Below are positions 19,431 to 24,037 of a stretch of DNA of 64,000 nt, piece after piece (positions within the stretch are counted from its first letter, which is position 1; each line of letters opens with the position of its first letter). The position numbers and the translations under genes are program-made. Location of the stretch: assembly GCA_902776435.1 (NCBI GenBank), contig CACYQB010000001.1, positions 124,001 to 188,000 on the forward strand. Direction: 5' to 3'. The notes beneath the pieces were generated by a model, which worked only from the letters and a program-made list of their open reading frames with translations, was not told where the DNA came from and did no database searches. Source of the DNA: an uncultured Bacteroidales bacterium. GTDB lineage: Bacteria > Bacteroidota > Bacteroidia > Bacteroidales > Muribaculaceae.

Positions 19431-21137
19431 TTATTGAACGGCGACTTTCCAAGCGCTGCGGCTGGTGGCAGTCTTGAGCAGGTAGATGCCACGCGGCAGG
19501 TCGATAACCATGTCGTTGTGCAGGTTGTCAATGCGGCGCACTACACGTCCGGCCATGTCATAGATGGTAGCGGTGCCCAGGTCCTCGTTGCACTGGATGA
19601 GAATGCCGCCCTCCTTGCCGATGATGTGTAAGGGCTTGTCGGCCTCAATACCAGTGATGCCGCTGGCATCCAGCGTAATGGTATTGGACGGATTGCTCAA
19701 GTAGCCCAGTCGGTAGGACTGCACGTAGTAGGTGTGGGTTTCGCCCGGCATGCGGTCGTCAAATAAGTAGCTCGCTGTGTTGCTGTCATCGGTGTTGGTG
19801 ACCTCGGTACGGACATCACCATTCTCCTTGTTATAAATGGTGCGGGTAATCACGTAATAGTCAACTTCCTCGTTGGCAGCCTTCCAGTTGGCGATATACT
19901 TGCTGCCGTTGATGTCGGTGGCTTCAAGGGCTGTGAGGGTTGTCAGGGTGGGAGCAGGAAGGCAAGTAGCGAGAAGTTCGACCTCCACACTGCCGACGAG
20001 TCCGCCATCATAAATTACCAGATGGGCCGAGTGGTTGCCGAGGGTTGTGGGTGTGTAGGTGATGGTCAGGGCATAGCCGTCGGCGCTGTTGGCAGCGGTG
20101 CGGCTAATGGTCGACACGGGAATGCTGAACATCTTGTAGTCGTCACGGTACAGCACCAGCGAGAGCGGATTGGTCAAACCGTGTCCCTTGACGTAGAGGG
20201 TATAGTCAAGCGACTTGCCCAGGGCGACTTCGCCAAAGTTGAGTGATGTGCCCTGTGTAGGTGCGATGAGTTCAGGTTCTCCGTCATAAGTAGTCGTGTC
20301 GCTGCTGGTGCCTGCCTCGCTAACGTAGAAAATCTGTCCCTGGCGGTTGCCCCAGATATATTCAAACAAATCAGGGAAGTCGATGAACGGGTTACGGTTG
20401 TTCTGGTGCTTCTGTACCGCATCGTTGCGGTTCACTTCCTTGTCGCTCACGGCATCGTTGCGTGCCCAGCGGCACAACATCTCGATAGACCAGTTGTTAA
20501 GCGTCTTCCAGGAAGTGTTGTTGAGCATGTAGGTGTATTTCCACTTGTAATGTTGATAGGCGCATGCCATATAGAAGTAGGTGCGGGCAAAGTCGCCCTT
20601 GTAACGGTTGTCCGGTTCAAACACCTGATTGGCTCCACCGCCTTGGCCCATCATGGGAGAGCCCACACGGGTCACGCCGTTATCAAATTCCACCTGTGAC
20701 ACCTCACCTAACGGCCAGTTATATTTTGCCATGTTGGCATCTTCCTCCGAGGGGTAGAGGTGGTTGATGTCGGTGTAGGCCGAGTAGCCTTGGCTCGCGT
20801 CATAGCCACCCCACCAACTCTTGGGCAAGGAGTGTTCCCTGTTCATGCCGTATGGGGCACTGTAGCCTCTGAAATAGAAGACGTCGTCACTGTACATGTC
20901 CCACACTTGATTAGGGTTCTCGGGACGGCAGTCGGTTTCGGTAAAGTAACCCCACAGGCTGCCGTAACTCAGCGTGGTGTGCTGCATTGCTAGGTTGTGA
21001 ATGGCATCCTTGAGGGCTTCACCGCTCTTGCCGTCTAGTGAGCTGTAGTAGCCGGCGGGAATGGTAGCGCTGGCGCCCATCCATGCTGTGATGGCAGCAA
21101 TGGCGATGGCGAGTCGGTATAATCTCTTTGGAATCAT
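19431..21137 (-). CDS. Secreted endonuclease I-family nuclease with T9SS-like tail
   Basis: This 568-residue protein has a signal peptide (first about 25 residues, ending GASA), then the endonuclease I fold with NREHSLPKSWWG (about 99-110) and DINHLYPSEEDAN (about 125-137), which hold the metal and catalytic His/Asn residues. A beta-sandwich with Ser/Thr-rich strands and an FN3-like segment (about 395-480) follow. The last roughly 70 residues (ATIYDMAGRVVRRI to the end) match the Por secretion/T9SS type A sorting pattern. It is predicted to degrade extracellular DNA or RNA, for example for nutrient scavenging. TAACTTTG at 21166-21173 on the minus strand is a probable -7 box. Confidence 0.9.
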   Translation of the reverse strand: MIPKRLYRLAIAIAAITAWMGASATIPAGYYSSLDGKSGEALKDAIHNLAMQHTTLSYGSLWGYFTETDCRPENPNQVWDMYSDDVFYFRGYSAPYGMNREHSLPKSWWGGYDASQGYSAYTDINHLYPSEEDANMAKYNWPLGEVSQVEFDNGVTRVGSPMMGQGGGANQVFEPDNRYKGDFARTYFYMACAYQHYKWKYTYMLNNTSWKTLNNWSIEMLCRWARNDAVSDKEVNRNDAVQKHQNNRNPFIDFPDLFEYIWGNRQGQIFYVSEAGTSSDTTTYDGEPELIAPTQGTSLNFGEVALGKSLDYTLYVKGHGLTNPLSLVLYRDDYKMFSIPVSTISRTAANSADGYALTITYTPTTLGNHSAHLVIYDGGLVGSVEVELLATCLPAPTLTTLTALEATDINGSKYIANWKAANEEVDYYVITRTIYNKENGDVRTEVTNTDDSNTASYLFDDRMPGETHTYYVQSYRLGYLSNPSNTITLDASGITGIEADKPLHIIGKEGGILIQCNEDLGTATIYDMAGRVVRRIDNLHNDMVIDLPRGIYLLKTATSRSAWKVAVQ

Positions 21138-22753: not shown

Positions 22754-22841
22754 GGAGTGATGCTCGAGTGGCTGAAGAGGCACGCCTGGAAAGCGTGTAT
22801 ACGTCAAAAGCGTATCCCGAGTTCGAATCTCGGTCACTCCG
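22754..22841 (+). tRNA. tRNA-Ser(GGA)
   Basis: The acceptor arms GGAGTGA (22754-22760) and TCACTCC (22834-22840) pair fully, with discriminator G at 22841. The anticodon stem-loop is CACGC-CTGGAAA-GCGTG, giving anticodon GGA. A long variable arm (TATACGTCAAAAGCGTA) and the T arm (CCGAG-TTCGAAT-CTCGG) confirm a class II serine tRNA. CCA is not encoded. Confidence 0.96.
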
Positions 22842-22845
22842 CAAG

Positions 22846-22880
22846 AAAAAAGAGACGACAACAACTGTCGCCTCTTTTTT
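22846..22880 (+). terminator. Intrinsic terminator of tRNA-Ser
   Basis: GAGACGACA and TGTCGCCTC form a 9-bp stem with one A/C mismatch, followed by TTTTTT, 10 nt after the tRNA. Confidence 0.85.
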
Positions 22881-22909: not shown

Positions 22910-23899
22910 CTACGAGGATGGTGGGGTGACAATATTTTTTGCCAGGTTGTTGAGTTGCAGGCACTGGTCACGGGTGATTTTCTTTTTCTCGCTATGATAG
23001 GGCCAGGGGGCGACGAAAAGTAACTGCCCTCTGGCACAGGCATCGAATTGCTGGCCACCTGGTTTCCACAGCGGCGAAAAACCGTTCTCCAGCAAAATGA
23101 TTTCACGTATTCCTGCTTCGAAGGCAGTTCTCATCACTGTTTTCTCGCATGGGCTGATGCAGGGTGAGACCAATATGGACCCGTCTCGGGCCATTGCCAT
23201 GTAGCGGTTGACTTCGCGTGCTATGGCTTCATCGGTATTGATGCTCCGCGAGCATTGTACCATGATTTTGAAGGGGTGCTCAAGCAGAAATCGGTTGCCG
23301 GCGATGGCGACTTGAGTATTTCCCACAGTAATGTCTTGTTGGATGGTGAAGAACTCGGGATGGTAGCGCTTTGTCCACAGTCGGCGGGGATTGTCATGCA
23401 GGTAGTTCAACATGGTTTCCAACTGCCCTTTGTTAATGAGGATTCTGTCATGGTATCCCTCTTCCCAGAGGGTTGTGCCCAGTAATTCCCTTGCTGCGGC
23501 ATTGCATCCCACCTTGAAACCGTTTATTACATTACCCAAATGGTATGGTACCTGGCAGGTAACGAAGAGGACTCCGTGCAGATGGTCGGGCATGAGCTGG
23601 ATGTCCATTATTCTCACCTCGTGGTAATGGGCTGGGATGGCATGCCAGCATTCAAGCACCCTCTCGCCCAAGTGGCTTGGGCGAATCCATGGCACGAGGT
23701 GACTGTCATCGGGGTCGCATAACTCTCCTAGCACAGGCCTGCGCCCCTCCACGGCCATTGTTACCATATAAATGCAACGGCTGTGATAGTCGTGCCAAGC
23801 ATTGCGACGTTTCATGGAGCGATTTACTTGAAAGTCATCGTGGTGATGCTGCCACCACTGCCTGCGCTTCTCGTCACGCTCATGTCTCTCGTTACTCAT
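22910..23899 (-). CDS. REP-associated tyrosine (RAYT/IS200-like) transposase with extra C-terminal domain
   Basis: This 329-residue protein has a Y1 HUH transposase domain over about residues 30-185. The HUH motif is in QLMPDHLHGVLF (about 100-111) and the probable catalytic Tyr in MLNYLHDNPRRLW (about 164). The remaining about 140 residues look like a Rossmann-type fold: a first strand with AIAGNRFLLEHP, then ILVSPCISPCEK (about 243), AFEAGIREIILLENGF and ACARGQLLFVAP. The order resembles SLOG/DprA nucleotide-binding domains; this is inferred from pattern only. A large palindrome lies just upstream at 23938-24027, as expected for RAYTs and their REP targets. No IS ends were identified, so it may be a single-copy domesticated gene. 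Confidence 0.8.
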   Translation of the reverse strand: MSNERHERDEKRRQWWQHHHDDFQVNRSMKRRNAWHDYHSRCIYMVTMAVEGRRPVLGELCDPDDSHLVPWIRPSHLGERVLECWHAIPAHYHEVRIMDIQLMPDHLHGVLFVTCQVPYHLGNVINGFKVGCNAAARELLGTTLWEEGYHDRILINKGQLETMLNYLHDNPRRLWTKRYHPEFFTIQQDITVGNTQVAIAGNRFLLEHPFKIMVQCSRSINTDEAIAREVNRYMAMARDGSILVSPCISPCEKTVMRTAFEAGIREIILLENGFSPLWKPGGQQFDACARGQLLFVAPWPYHSEKKKITRDQCLQLNNLAKNIVTPPSS

Positions 23900-23937
23900 G
23901 TGGAGCAGGATGCTAATACTACTGGGGCTTTAAACAG

Positions 23938-24027
23938 GCCGGTGGCCTGCACTACTACAACTAGTGGTGCTGCTGTGATTGCAGTTGTTGCACGTGGTTA
24001 CCAGTTGTAGTAGTGCGAGCCACCGGC
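23938..24027. repeat. REP/BIME-like palindrome beside the RAYT gene
   Basis: Two 25-nt arms (23938-23962 and 24003-24027) are inverted repeats with only two adjacent mismatches; the shared core is GCACTACTACAACT and the outer part is GCCGGTGGC. The 40-nt centre is rich in TG and GC repeats. The element fills the gap between the RAYT start and the OPT gene end, and may also serve as terminator of the latter. Confidence 0.75.
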
Positions 24028-24037
24028 TCGTGTTTTA

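Follow-up and report, generated by a model that had tools for sequence, protein, structure and literature searches.

The DNA analysed here, a stretch of 64,000 nucleotides from an uncultured Bacteroidales bacterium of the Muribaculaceae, of gut or rumen type (positions 124,001 to 188,000 of contig CACYQB010000001.1, assembly GCA_902776435.1; hereafter the window, in whose own numbering coordinates are given), carries a gene whose product joins a REP-associated tyrosine transposase (RAYT) to a Rossmann domain of the kind found in DprA, known as a binder of single-stranded DNA (ssDNA). The best explanation, and one that we consider probable, is that this gene is a domesticated RAYT, a TnpA-REP-type HUH ssDNA nuclease, with a C-terminal module that derives from the DprA Rossmann domain and grips ssDNA. 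The HUH motif and the tyrosine are intact, the ssDNA-binding arginine of DprA is conserved, and the dimer and RecA region of DprA has no equivalent; homologues with the same two domains form one clade among the sampled sequences, are under purifying selection, and are associated with REP (repetitive extragenic palindromic) sequences and with REPINs, each consisting of two inverted REP hairpins. The features of the gene are these:

22910..23899, reverse strand: RAYT-DprA fusion gene, 329 amino acids from an ATG (open reading frame translation, 78-member family alignment, AlphaFold2 model).
23345..23791, reverse strand: HUH/Y1 (RAYT) domain, about residues 37-185 (NCBIfam NF047646, Pfam Y1_Tnp, Foldseek matches to IS608 and ISDra2 TnpA and to the RAYT 4er8).
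23576..23593, reverse strand: HUH motif MPDHLH, residues 103-108, with D105, H106 and H108 in 78 of 78 members.
23402..23404, reverse strand: Y166 (in YLHDNPRR), present in 78 of 78 members, the presumed catalytic tyrosine by analogy with the family.
22925..23344, reverse strand: clipped DprA-type Rossmann domain, about residues 186-325 (AlphaFold2 model of the C-terminal part, Foldseek, hidden Markov model (HMM) match to the DprA of Helicobacter pylori (HpDprA), standalone DprA-like proteins).
23246..23248, reverse strand: R218 of the CSR motif, present in 74 of 78 members and aligned with the ssDNA-binding arginine of DprA (R115 in the Streptococcus pneumoniae protein, SpDprA; R52 in HpDprA).

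The N-terminal half matches the NCBIfam model REP_Tyr_transpos (NF047646) at E 8e-8 and 32.3 bits, under the curated cut-off of 80, and Pfam Y1_Tnp at E 9e-4 and 19.8 bits, where the cut-off of 23 is not reached; NF047646 also matches all 78 aligned family members at E <= 0.01, the best of them at 1.3e-14. H106, H108 and Y166 are invariant in the 78, giving the HUH motif and single tyrosine by which RAYT/TnpA-REP proteins are recognised, although the DNPRR part of the tyrosine motif also served to select family members. An AlphaFold2 model of the full-length protein, built on the 78-sequence alignment, has a mean pLDDT of 93.9 and a pTM of 0.83, and its Foldseek neighbours are IS608, ISDra2 and other IS200-like transposases, the RAYT 4ER8, and also ShosA and DprA. 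These results confirm that the reading frame encodes an HUH/Y1 protein of the REP-associated, RAYT/TnpA-REP-like kind that bears an additional C-terminal alpha/beta domain of about 140 amino acids, as an earlier note made from this sequence had proposed in calling it a RAYT-type HUH transposase followed by a domain of DprA/SLOG-like layout. The fusion is not a chance one, because 78 aligned homologues have it and, in four of five comparisons, the C-terminal part shows a ratio of nonsynonymous to synonymous substitution rates (dN/dS) of 0.06-0.15; the N-terminal part gives 0.08-0.11 in three of the five, the remaining comparisons being saturated at synonymous sites in both cases. Both halves are under purifying selection.

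What the added domain is can be read most clearly from its fold. AlphaFold2 models the C-terminal 145 residues by themselves with a pLDDT of 93.5 and a pTM of 0.89 as a series of beta-alpha repeats, and with a full alpha/beta domain in the model we reject a plain transposase tail, the outcome that the earlier note had named as fatal to its proposal. The top 14 Foldseek chains in the PDB all belong to ShosA (8ZVA), the best single match, or to DprA of S. pneumoniae, H. pylori or Rhodopseudomonas palustris, thus four different proteins, with probability 1.00 and E 1e-4 to 1e-2, and the next match, among other Rossmann proteins, drops to a probability of 0.51 or below. Sequence similarity is weaker: the C-terminal residues of the window protein have no match in the Pfam scan, no C-terminal family is among the Pfam matches listed for the 78 members, and the single window protein finds nothing among PDB sequences. 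An HMM of the C-terminal family, run against PDB sequences, finds HpDprA at E 0.009 over the 'G..LL..P..V.I.GTR' stretch. The same HMM matches standalone proteins of about 150 amino acids in three other genomes of the order (L214:1390-1851, L215:1384-1848 and L216:1516-1971) at E 5e-12 to 3e-10 per genome, and these match PF02481 (DNA_processg_A) at E 2e-7 to 8e-5, one of them above the cut-off, and PADLOC PsyrA at E about 1e-12 to 1e-11. By these sequence matches, the standalone DprA-like proteins bridge the weak similarity between the fused domain and DprA.

Of these standalone PF02481/PsyrA-like proteins, that of L214 adjoins a gene for an NYN-domain protein and that of L215 a gene with an HATPase_c_4 match, with L216 likewise, below the cut-off. 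They may be related to the donor from which the fused domain came, and together with their neighbours they may form two-gene systems of their own.

In a joint alignment, the CSR motif of the fused domain falls on the G-T/S-R ssDNA-binding motif of DprA, and counting along the 3UQZ chain identifies the arginine aligned with R218 as R115 of SpDprA, which is reported to be fully conserved and to take part in ssDNA binding (R52 in HpDprA; PMC4066776, PMC7314969). The NR.LLEHP segment singled out in the earlier note corresponds, more exactly, to the 'G...LL' stretch that precedes G-T/S-R in DprA. G201, N202, E252, P280, C288 and N317 are invariant in all 78 members. By the same alignment the domain stops at the helix corresponding to 'RNRIIAGL' of DprA, ahead of the EDE triad E235/D243/E265 and of dimer-zone residues 249-275, so that neither the dimer zone nor the RecA-binding acidic patch of DprA has an equivalent; both the triad and residues 249-275 have been tied to RecA binding and dimerisation (PMC4066776). 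Gripping of ssDNA may therefore remain in the fused domain if the alignment is a guide, and RecA loading is unlikely, since the region that it would need is missing. The earlier suggestion that the domain loads or protects ssDNA stays plausible. We conclude that the domain is a clipped DprA Rossmann domain and not a generic nucleotide sensor, and that it is best read as a strongly diverged branch of DprA.

The gene starts beside a REPIN, palindromes of the kind that the earlier note proposed to look for near homologues. It takes up most of the 138 bp that separate the start of the RAYT from the OPT-transporter-like gene upstream:

23935..24030, no strand assigned: REPIN, a pair of REP hairpins in inverted orientation whose GTAGTG tags point inward, lying between the beginning of the RAYT gene and the OPT-transporter-like gene's end; a 28-nt inverted repeat at 89%.
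23935..23955, reverse strand: REP 1, GTAGTG plus CAGGCC-ACC-GGCCTG.
24010..24030, forward strand: REP 2, GTAGTG plus CGAGCC-ACC-GGCTCG.

As DNA the REPIN folds far better than its shuffles (z -6.6, with 0 of 200 as good), and the single REPs fold less strikingly, equalled by 1 and 3 of 200 shuffles. When the window is compared with two related loci, L053 and L066, hairpins and tags are largely conserved and the spacer has diverged; in L066 one REP is altered in both tag and stem. An Rfam scan around the gene returned no matches. The pattern GTANTGCRAGCCNNNGGCTYG has 13 exact sites in the window's own genome (G000; 3.45 Mb, 43 contigs) and is present in 35 of 61 genomes of the genus, the reversed control being absent from all 61; the copies are dispersed in the genome, as in RAYT/TnpA-REP systems, and their counts are low beside those of classical REPs. 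Some genomes of the genus have GTANTGCRAGCCNNNGGCTYG matches spaced by about 1 kb, which would fit a RAYT flanked by REPINs; at the own-genome paralog L004, REPINs on both sides were seen directly. A second REP type, GTTGCGTTGNCAACGCAAC, has 3 sites in G000 and is present in 21 of the 61 genomes, both strands being counted for this palindromic pattern; it is often paired at 480-530 bp, and the pair in G000 consists of one copy just upstream of the L005 paralog and one inside it. REP copies of the type GTAATGCGAGCC adjoin what look like ends of 5S rRNA genes at L138, L139, L140 and L143, which are the ends of G000 contigs C10, C11, C16 and C22. Directly upstream of the RAYT genes at L002 and L003, head-to-tail short repeats of roughly 25-35 bp were noticed by eye in the 250 bp viewed.

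Hairpins accompany the family at large. Across 73 loci, L066 included, we counted 73 hairpins in 142 flanking 200-bp segments (0.51 each), 55 of which hold at least one, compared with 0.04 per segment in dinucleotide shuffles and 0.086 in 523 control segments taken 0.8-2.2 kb away, probably mostly coding DNA, 42 of which hold a hairpin. Hairpins also lie within the genes: 39 of the 78 carry one in one Y1-domain loop, at a density of 4.8/kb there and 0.32/kb elsewhere in the genes, the rest of the genes serving as the comparison in place of shuffles. The window gene has no loop hairpin, and one of the six own-genome paralogs has an in-gene hairpin. The survey of homologues that the earlier note had proposed thus finds the fusion in 78 aligned homologues and a hairpin in flank or loop in 69 of the 78 genes. 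For the finer comparisons hairpins with A or T runs, which stay in the flank and in-gene counts, were removed (that is, before the Mantel test, the flank-loop matching and the tag counts), and L066 was left out of these and of the in-gene count. Flank and in-gene hairpins are both present in 16 genes, and of these pairs 10 are close matches (similarity 0.9-1.0) and one is at 0.58; mean similarity is 0.73 within loci and 0.43 across them, a mean that none of 2000 permutations reaches. Hairpin similarity also tracks RAYT identity (Mantel r 0.68, 0 of 2000; 46 loci, 998 pairs below 80% identity). Inverted pairing was seen at the window and at L004, the family-wide count being one of hairpins and not of pairs.

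G000 has six members of the family on six contigs, all with the extra domain, and the five paralogs of the window protein are 34-72% identical to it. A scan of genome contigs found at least 487 relatives in 588 stretches, and the best 80 by similarity to the window protein were examined for the fusion. These 80 come from Prevotellaceae/Prevotella, Muribaculaceae, Bacteroidaceae, Porphyromonadaceae and otherwise unclassified Bacteroidales, Bacteroidia and Bacteroidetes, nearly all as metagenome-assembled genomes, many with ruminant-gut titles, and include the strain Prevotella lacticifex JCM 34664, a species that can be cultivated and has a single fused RAYT (L105). The 78-member family consists of 72 of them and the six own-genome paralogs; seven loci lacking a single frame with both motifs (L059, L084, L085, L093, L107, L124, L131) and the truncated L066 were omitted. 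A model of the C-terminal domain alone finds matches in 64 of the 198 genomes from the window's taxonomic family, in 16 of 30 genera and with 1-8 matches each; four of these genomes (G436, G487, G517, G537) have short frames of 67-160 amino acids only, and in the other 60 the match lies within an open frame of at least about 245 amino acids and is taken as the fusion, without each being read. In the order, 22 of 393 genomes match, four (G751, G891, G892, G917) in frames of 153-164 amino acids that are standalone proteins and G436 in one of 73. The full-length model, scored on at most five candidates per genome, matches 105 of 395 genomes of the class, and the matches listed outside the own genome end at or before profile position 185 of 322 and are plain RAYTs.

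A maximum-likelihood tree of the Y1 core has a 100/99 branch that divides the 78 fused proteins from 29 plain RAYTs, namely those at L024-L052 from the class search, which are a part of all plain RAYTs. This is consistent with a single fusion event, limited by long branches, midpoint rooting and the choice of rows: the fused rows were chosen by full-length similarity and DNPRR, and close plain relatives may have been missed. In G000 a sixth, very diverged paralog (L007:976-2121, contig C14; branch 2.55) lies between hsdM-like and hsdS-like genes, type I restriction-modification neighbours recognised by eye, with no hairpin by our criteria within 200 bp, and has possibly been repurposed.

The window gene itself lies among an OPT-type transporter, a tRNA and a helicase-like gene; the transporter and helicase, like the hsdM and hsdS genes, were named by eye, without a family scan. 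L053, whose protein is 84% identical, adjoins the same OPT gene and has, further downstream, a counterpart of the gene at window positions 19431-21137. Of the 58 genomes of the genus in which the OPT gene is matched, 30 were read downstream of it. The RAYT and the REPIN are both present at this site in the window's own locus (L221) and in L229, L233 and L234, the last without the C-terminus, and L224 (G992) has kept the REPIN beside a RAYT remnant of about the first 26 and last 11 codons (the last part recognised by eye). At L240 and L241 the OPT gene adjoins the helicase-like gene, with neither a RAYT nor the window REP type. Neither is present at the other 23 loci, where the site itself may differ, because no helicase was found within the stretch read (<= 1.5 kb). 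REPIN and RAYT thus occur together at this site, where the REPIN can persist after the gene is lost. Window positions 22754-22880, between the RAYT and the helicase-like gene, hold a tRNA-Ser (anticodon gga, ARAGORN) and then a strong inverted repeat, 22846-22880; ARAGORN found the tRNA-Ser in L001, from the own genome, and none in the other five loci scanned, and a hairpin similar to the repeat lies downstream of L053 and L066.

From these observations we infer a mechanism in which the HUH domain would recognise the tagged hairpin when it is exposed as ssDNA, for instance on the lagging-strand template, and would nick and rejoin beside it through Y166. The DprA module would grip the neighbouring ssDNA and hold or orient the strand, so that one protein could engage a hairpin together with its flanking strand, or both REPs of a REPIN; the REP and REPIN copies and the in-gene REP insertions would then be both by-product and substrate population.

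Several results weigh against this explanation, however, and some of them touch the identity of the domain. The Foldseek TM-scores are moderate (0.61-0.68 by query length), and in the HMM search of PDB sequences HpDprA is followed by the unrelated ribosomal protein S3 at E 0.08, SpDprA reaching only 0.18. The profile-profile search that the earlier note had called for, run with hhalign between the C-terminal alignment (A3; 64 of the 78 members, with the tail of L077 trimmed) and 19 canonical Bacteroidota DprAs, is collinear but gives 9% probability; the A3 HMM scores those DprAs at E 0.0017 at best, and the DprA of the own genome at 0.13, in a set of 22 sequences; and PF02481 is matched in only 2 of 64 C-terminal members, the best at E 0.1, and not by the window domain. 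Because of the hhalign result, the assignment to DprA rests on the fold, the weak HMM match to HpDprA and the standalone bridges. As to function, the arginine is absent in four of 78 members (the own-genome paralog L003, and L081, L092 and L123), and ssDNA binding by SpDprA is reported to need a patch of basic residues (PMC4066776), more than the one arginine followed here. As to the hairpins, nine of 78 genes show none by the criteria used, some flank hairpins will be there by chance or as terminators, and in five of the 16 genes with both kinds the in-gene and flank hairpins differ (similarity < 0.4). The similarity of hairpins rises only above 60% RAYT identity, so that much of the correlation may be due to gene and flank having descended together. 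Nor is the tag universal, since GT[AG]G stands near the foot of 29 of 79 flank hairpins, the reversed motif of 6, although the window REPs carry GTAGTG.

A different job for the C-terminal module would be that of a protein-interaction or regulatory domain, like the antitoxin DprA homologs ShosA and PsyrA, restraining or targeting the HUH nuclease with no grip on ssDNA. ShosA is the best single structural match, the standalone relatives match PADLOC PsyrA (E 1e-11 to 1e-12), DprA homologs have been cited as antitoxins (PMC9122126), and with the dimer and RecA region missing by alignment the classical DprA job is gone. We judge it rather unlikely all the same: the ssDNA-binding arginine is kept in 74 of 78 members, PADLOC models do not match the window protein even at E up to 1, and no toxin partner was seen by eye among the transporter, tRNA and helicase-like neighbours.

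It is distinctly improbable that the domain is a structural relic that stabilises a fold or a dimer, with no ssDNA binding, in an otherwise ordinary RAYT. The gene does seem dispensable in some strains, as L224 has lost nearly the whole frame and kept its REPIN and both L066 and L234 lack the C-terminus, yet residues of the domain are invariant in 78 of 78 members and purifying selection on it is similar to that on the catalytic half.

We are more doubtful still that the window gene is an active insertion element rather than a domesticated one. Several paralogs per genome (six in G000), hairpins on both sides of some copies and the lack of both gene and REPIN at the orthologous site of L240 and L241 would fit such an element. 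Among the own-genome paralogs, however, there is no near-identical copy, and their positions are spread across the fused clade; L053 retains the same OPT gene beside it and the same gene further downstream, and 50,697 phage and 72,556 plasmid records hold no match; the domestication that the earlier note suspected finds support. A recent expansion of an insertion sequence is rejected. Cargo of phages or plasmids is also rejected: neither set of records has a match, and none of 11 pattern stretches in IMG/VR was confirmed, with the proviso that records very near the own genome may be missing from these searches.

That a nucleotide-sensing SLOG domain controls REP handling, the other suggestion of the earlier note, is hardly credible: a Rossmann-like alpha/beta fold in general would suit it, but the top structural matches are DprA and ShosA only and not nucleotide-binding SLOG enzymes, the DprA ssDNA-binding arginine is conserved, and no SLOG family is among the Pfam matches listed save the weak PF02481 (DprA) hits, so that of the 'DprA/SLOG' layout the DprA part stands and the SLOG enzyme is rejected.

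A RAYT clade with a selected DprA-type domain offers a concrete and testable clue to the open question of how RAYTs benefit their hosts: the benefit may come from holding ssDNA, and removal or mutation could separate the domain from the nuclease. REP/REPIN systems, in-gene REPs included, are extended to a large group of Bacteroidales, some genomes having several RAYT-REP pairs. A bolder version, which we think improbable, is a self-contained ssDNA capture-and-cut machine, in which the DprA module would catch ssDNA, whether the lagging strand or strands that enter by transformation or conjugation, and feed it to the REP-guided HUH nuclease, with the dispersed REPINs as docking or resolution sites; were it true, a host system for recombination or DNA-entry control would have been made from a RAYT and a piece of a natural-transformation mediator.

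In the literature searched, judged by titles and the starts of abstracts and with most subscription papers outside the search, we found no description of a RAYT-DprA fusion, in agreement with the earlier note, which knew of no RAYT group with such a domain. Among known systems, the antitoxins ShosA (8ZVA) and PsyrA resemble the fused domain in that ShosA is its top Foldseek match and PsyrA is matched by its standalone relatives, and they differ in that the domain here is joined to a RAYT, with no toxin partner seen by eye. DprA/Smf (HpDprA 4LJK, SpDprA 3UQZ; PF02481) shares the Rossmann fold, collinear motifs and the GSR/GTR arginine, kept here as CSR, whereas the fused domain, of about 140 amino acids, ends by alignment ahead of the dimer zone and RecA patch, is joined to an HUH nuclease and is too divergent for Pfam.

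On the transposase side the likeness is to TnpA-REP/RAYT proteins (E. coli TnpAREP, PDB 4ER8; TnpA-Y1 class 2, PMC6006769), with an HUH motif and a single tyrosine in YxxxNP, low copy number, REPs or REPINs at the gene and a REP type that varies between RAYT lineages; the extra DprA-type C-terminal domain sets the window family apart. Where Quentin et al. 2018 (PMC6006769) describe C-terminal additions, these are Bac_DnaA_C, HTH or unnamed domains, and the word DprA does not occur in the text of that paper. Within class 2, subclass 2.4 (Bertels group 4) is described as abundant in Bacteroidetes among others, and in-gene REPs are called its unique feature (PMC6006769); the in-frame REP insertions inside tnpA in 39 of 78 family genes are alike. 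The published motifs of that subclass, NH[IFV]H and YIxNNP (PMC6006769), differ from the DH[LIF]H and Y[LIV]xDNPRR seen here, and where the same source reports no core extension or tail for it, the window family has its DprA domain. The architecture is thus a real one for which no description was found, a known kind of RAYT with an added DprA domain, whose fold the earlier note had named correctly.
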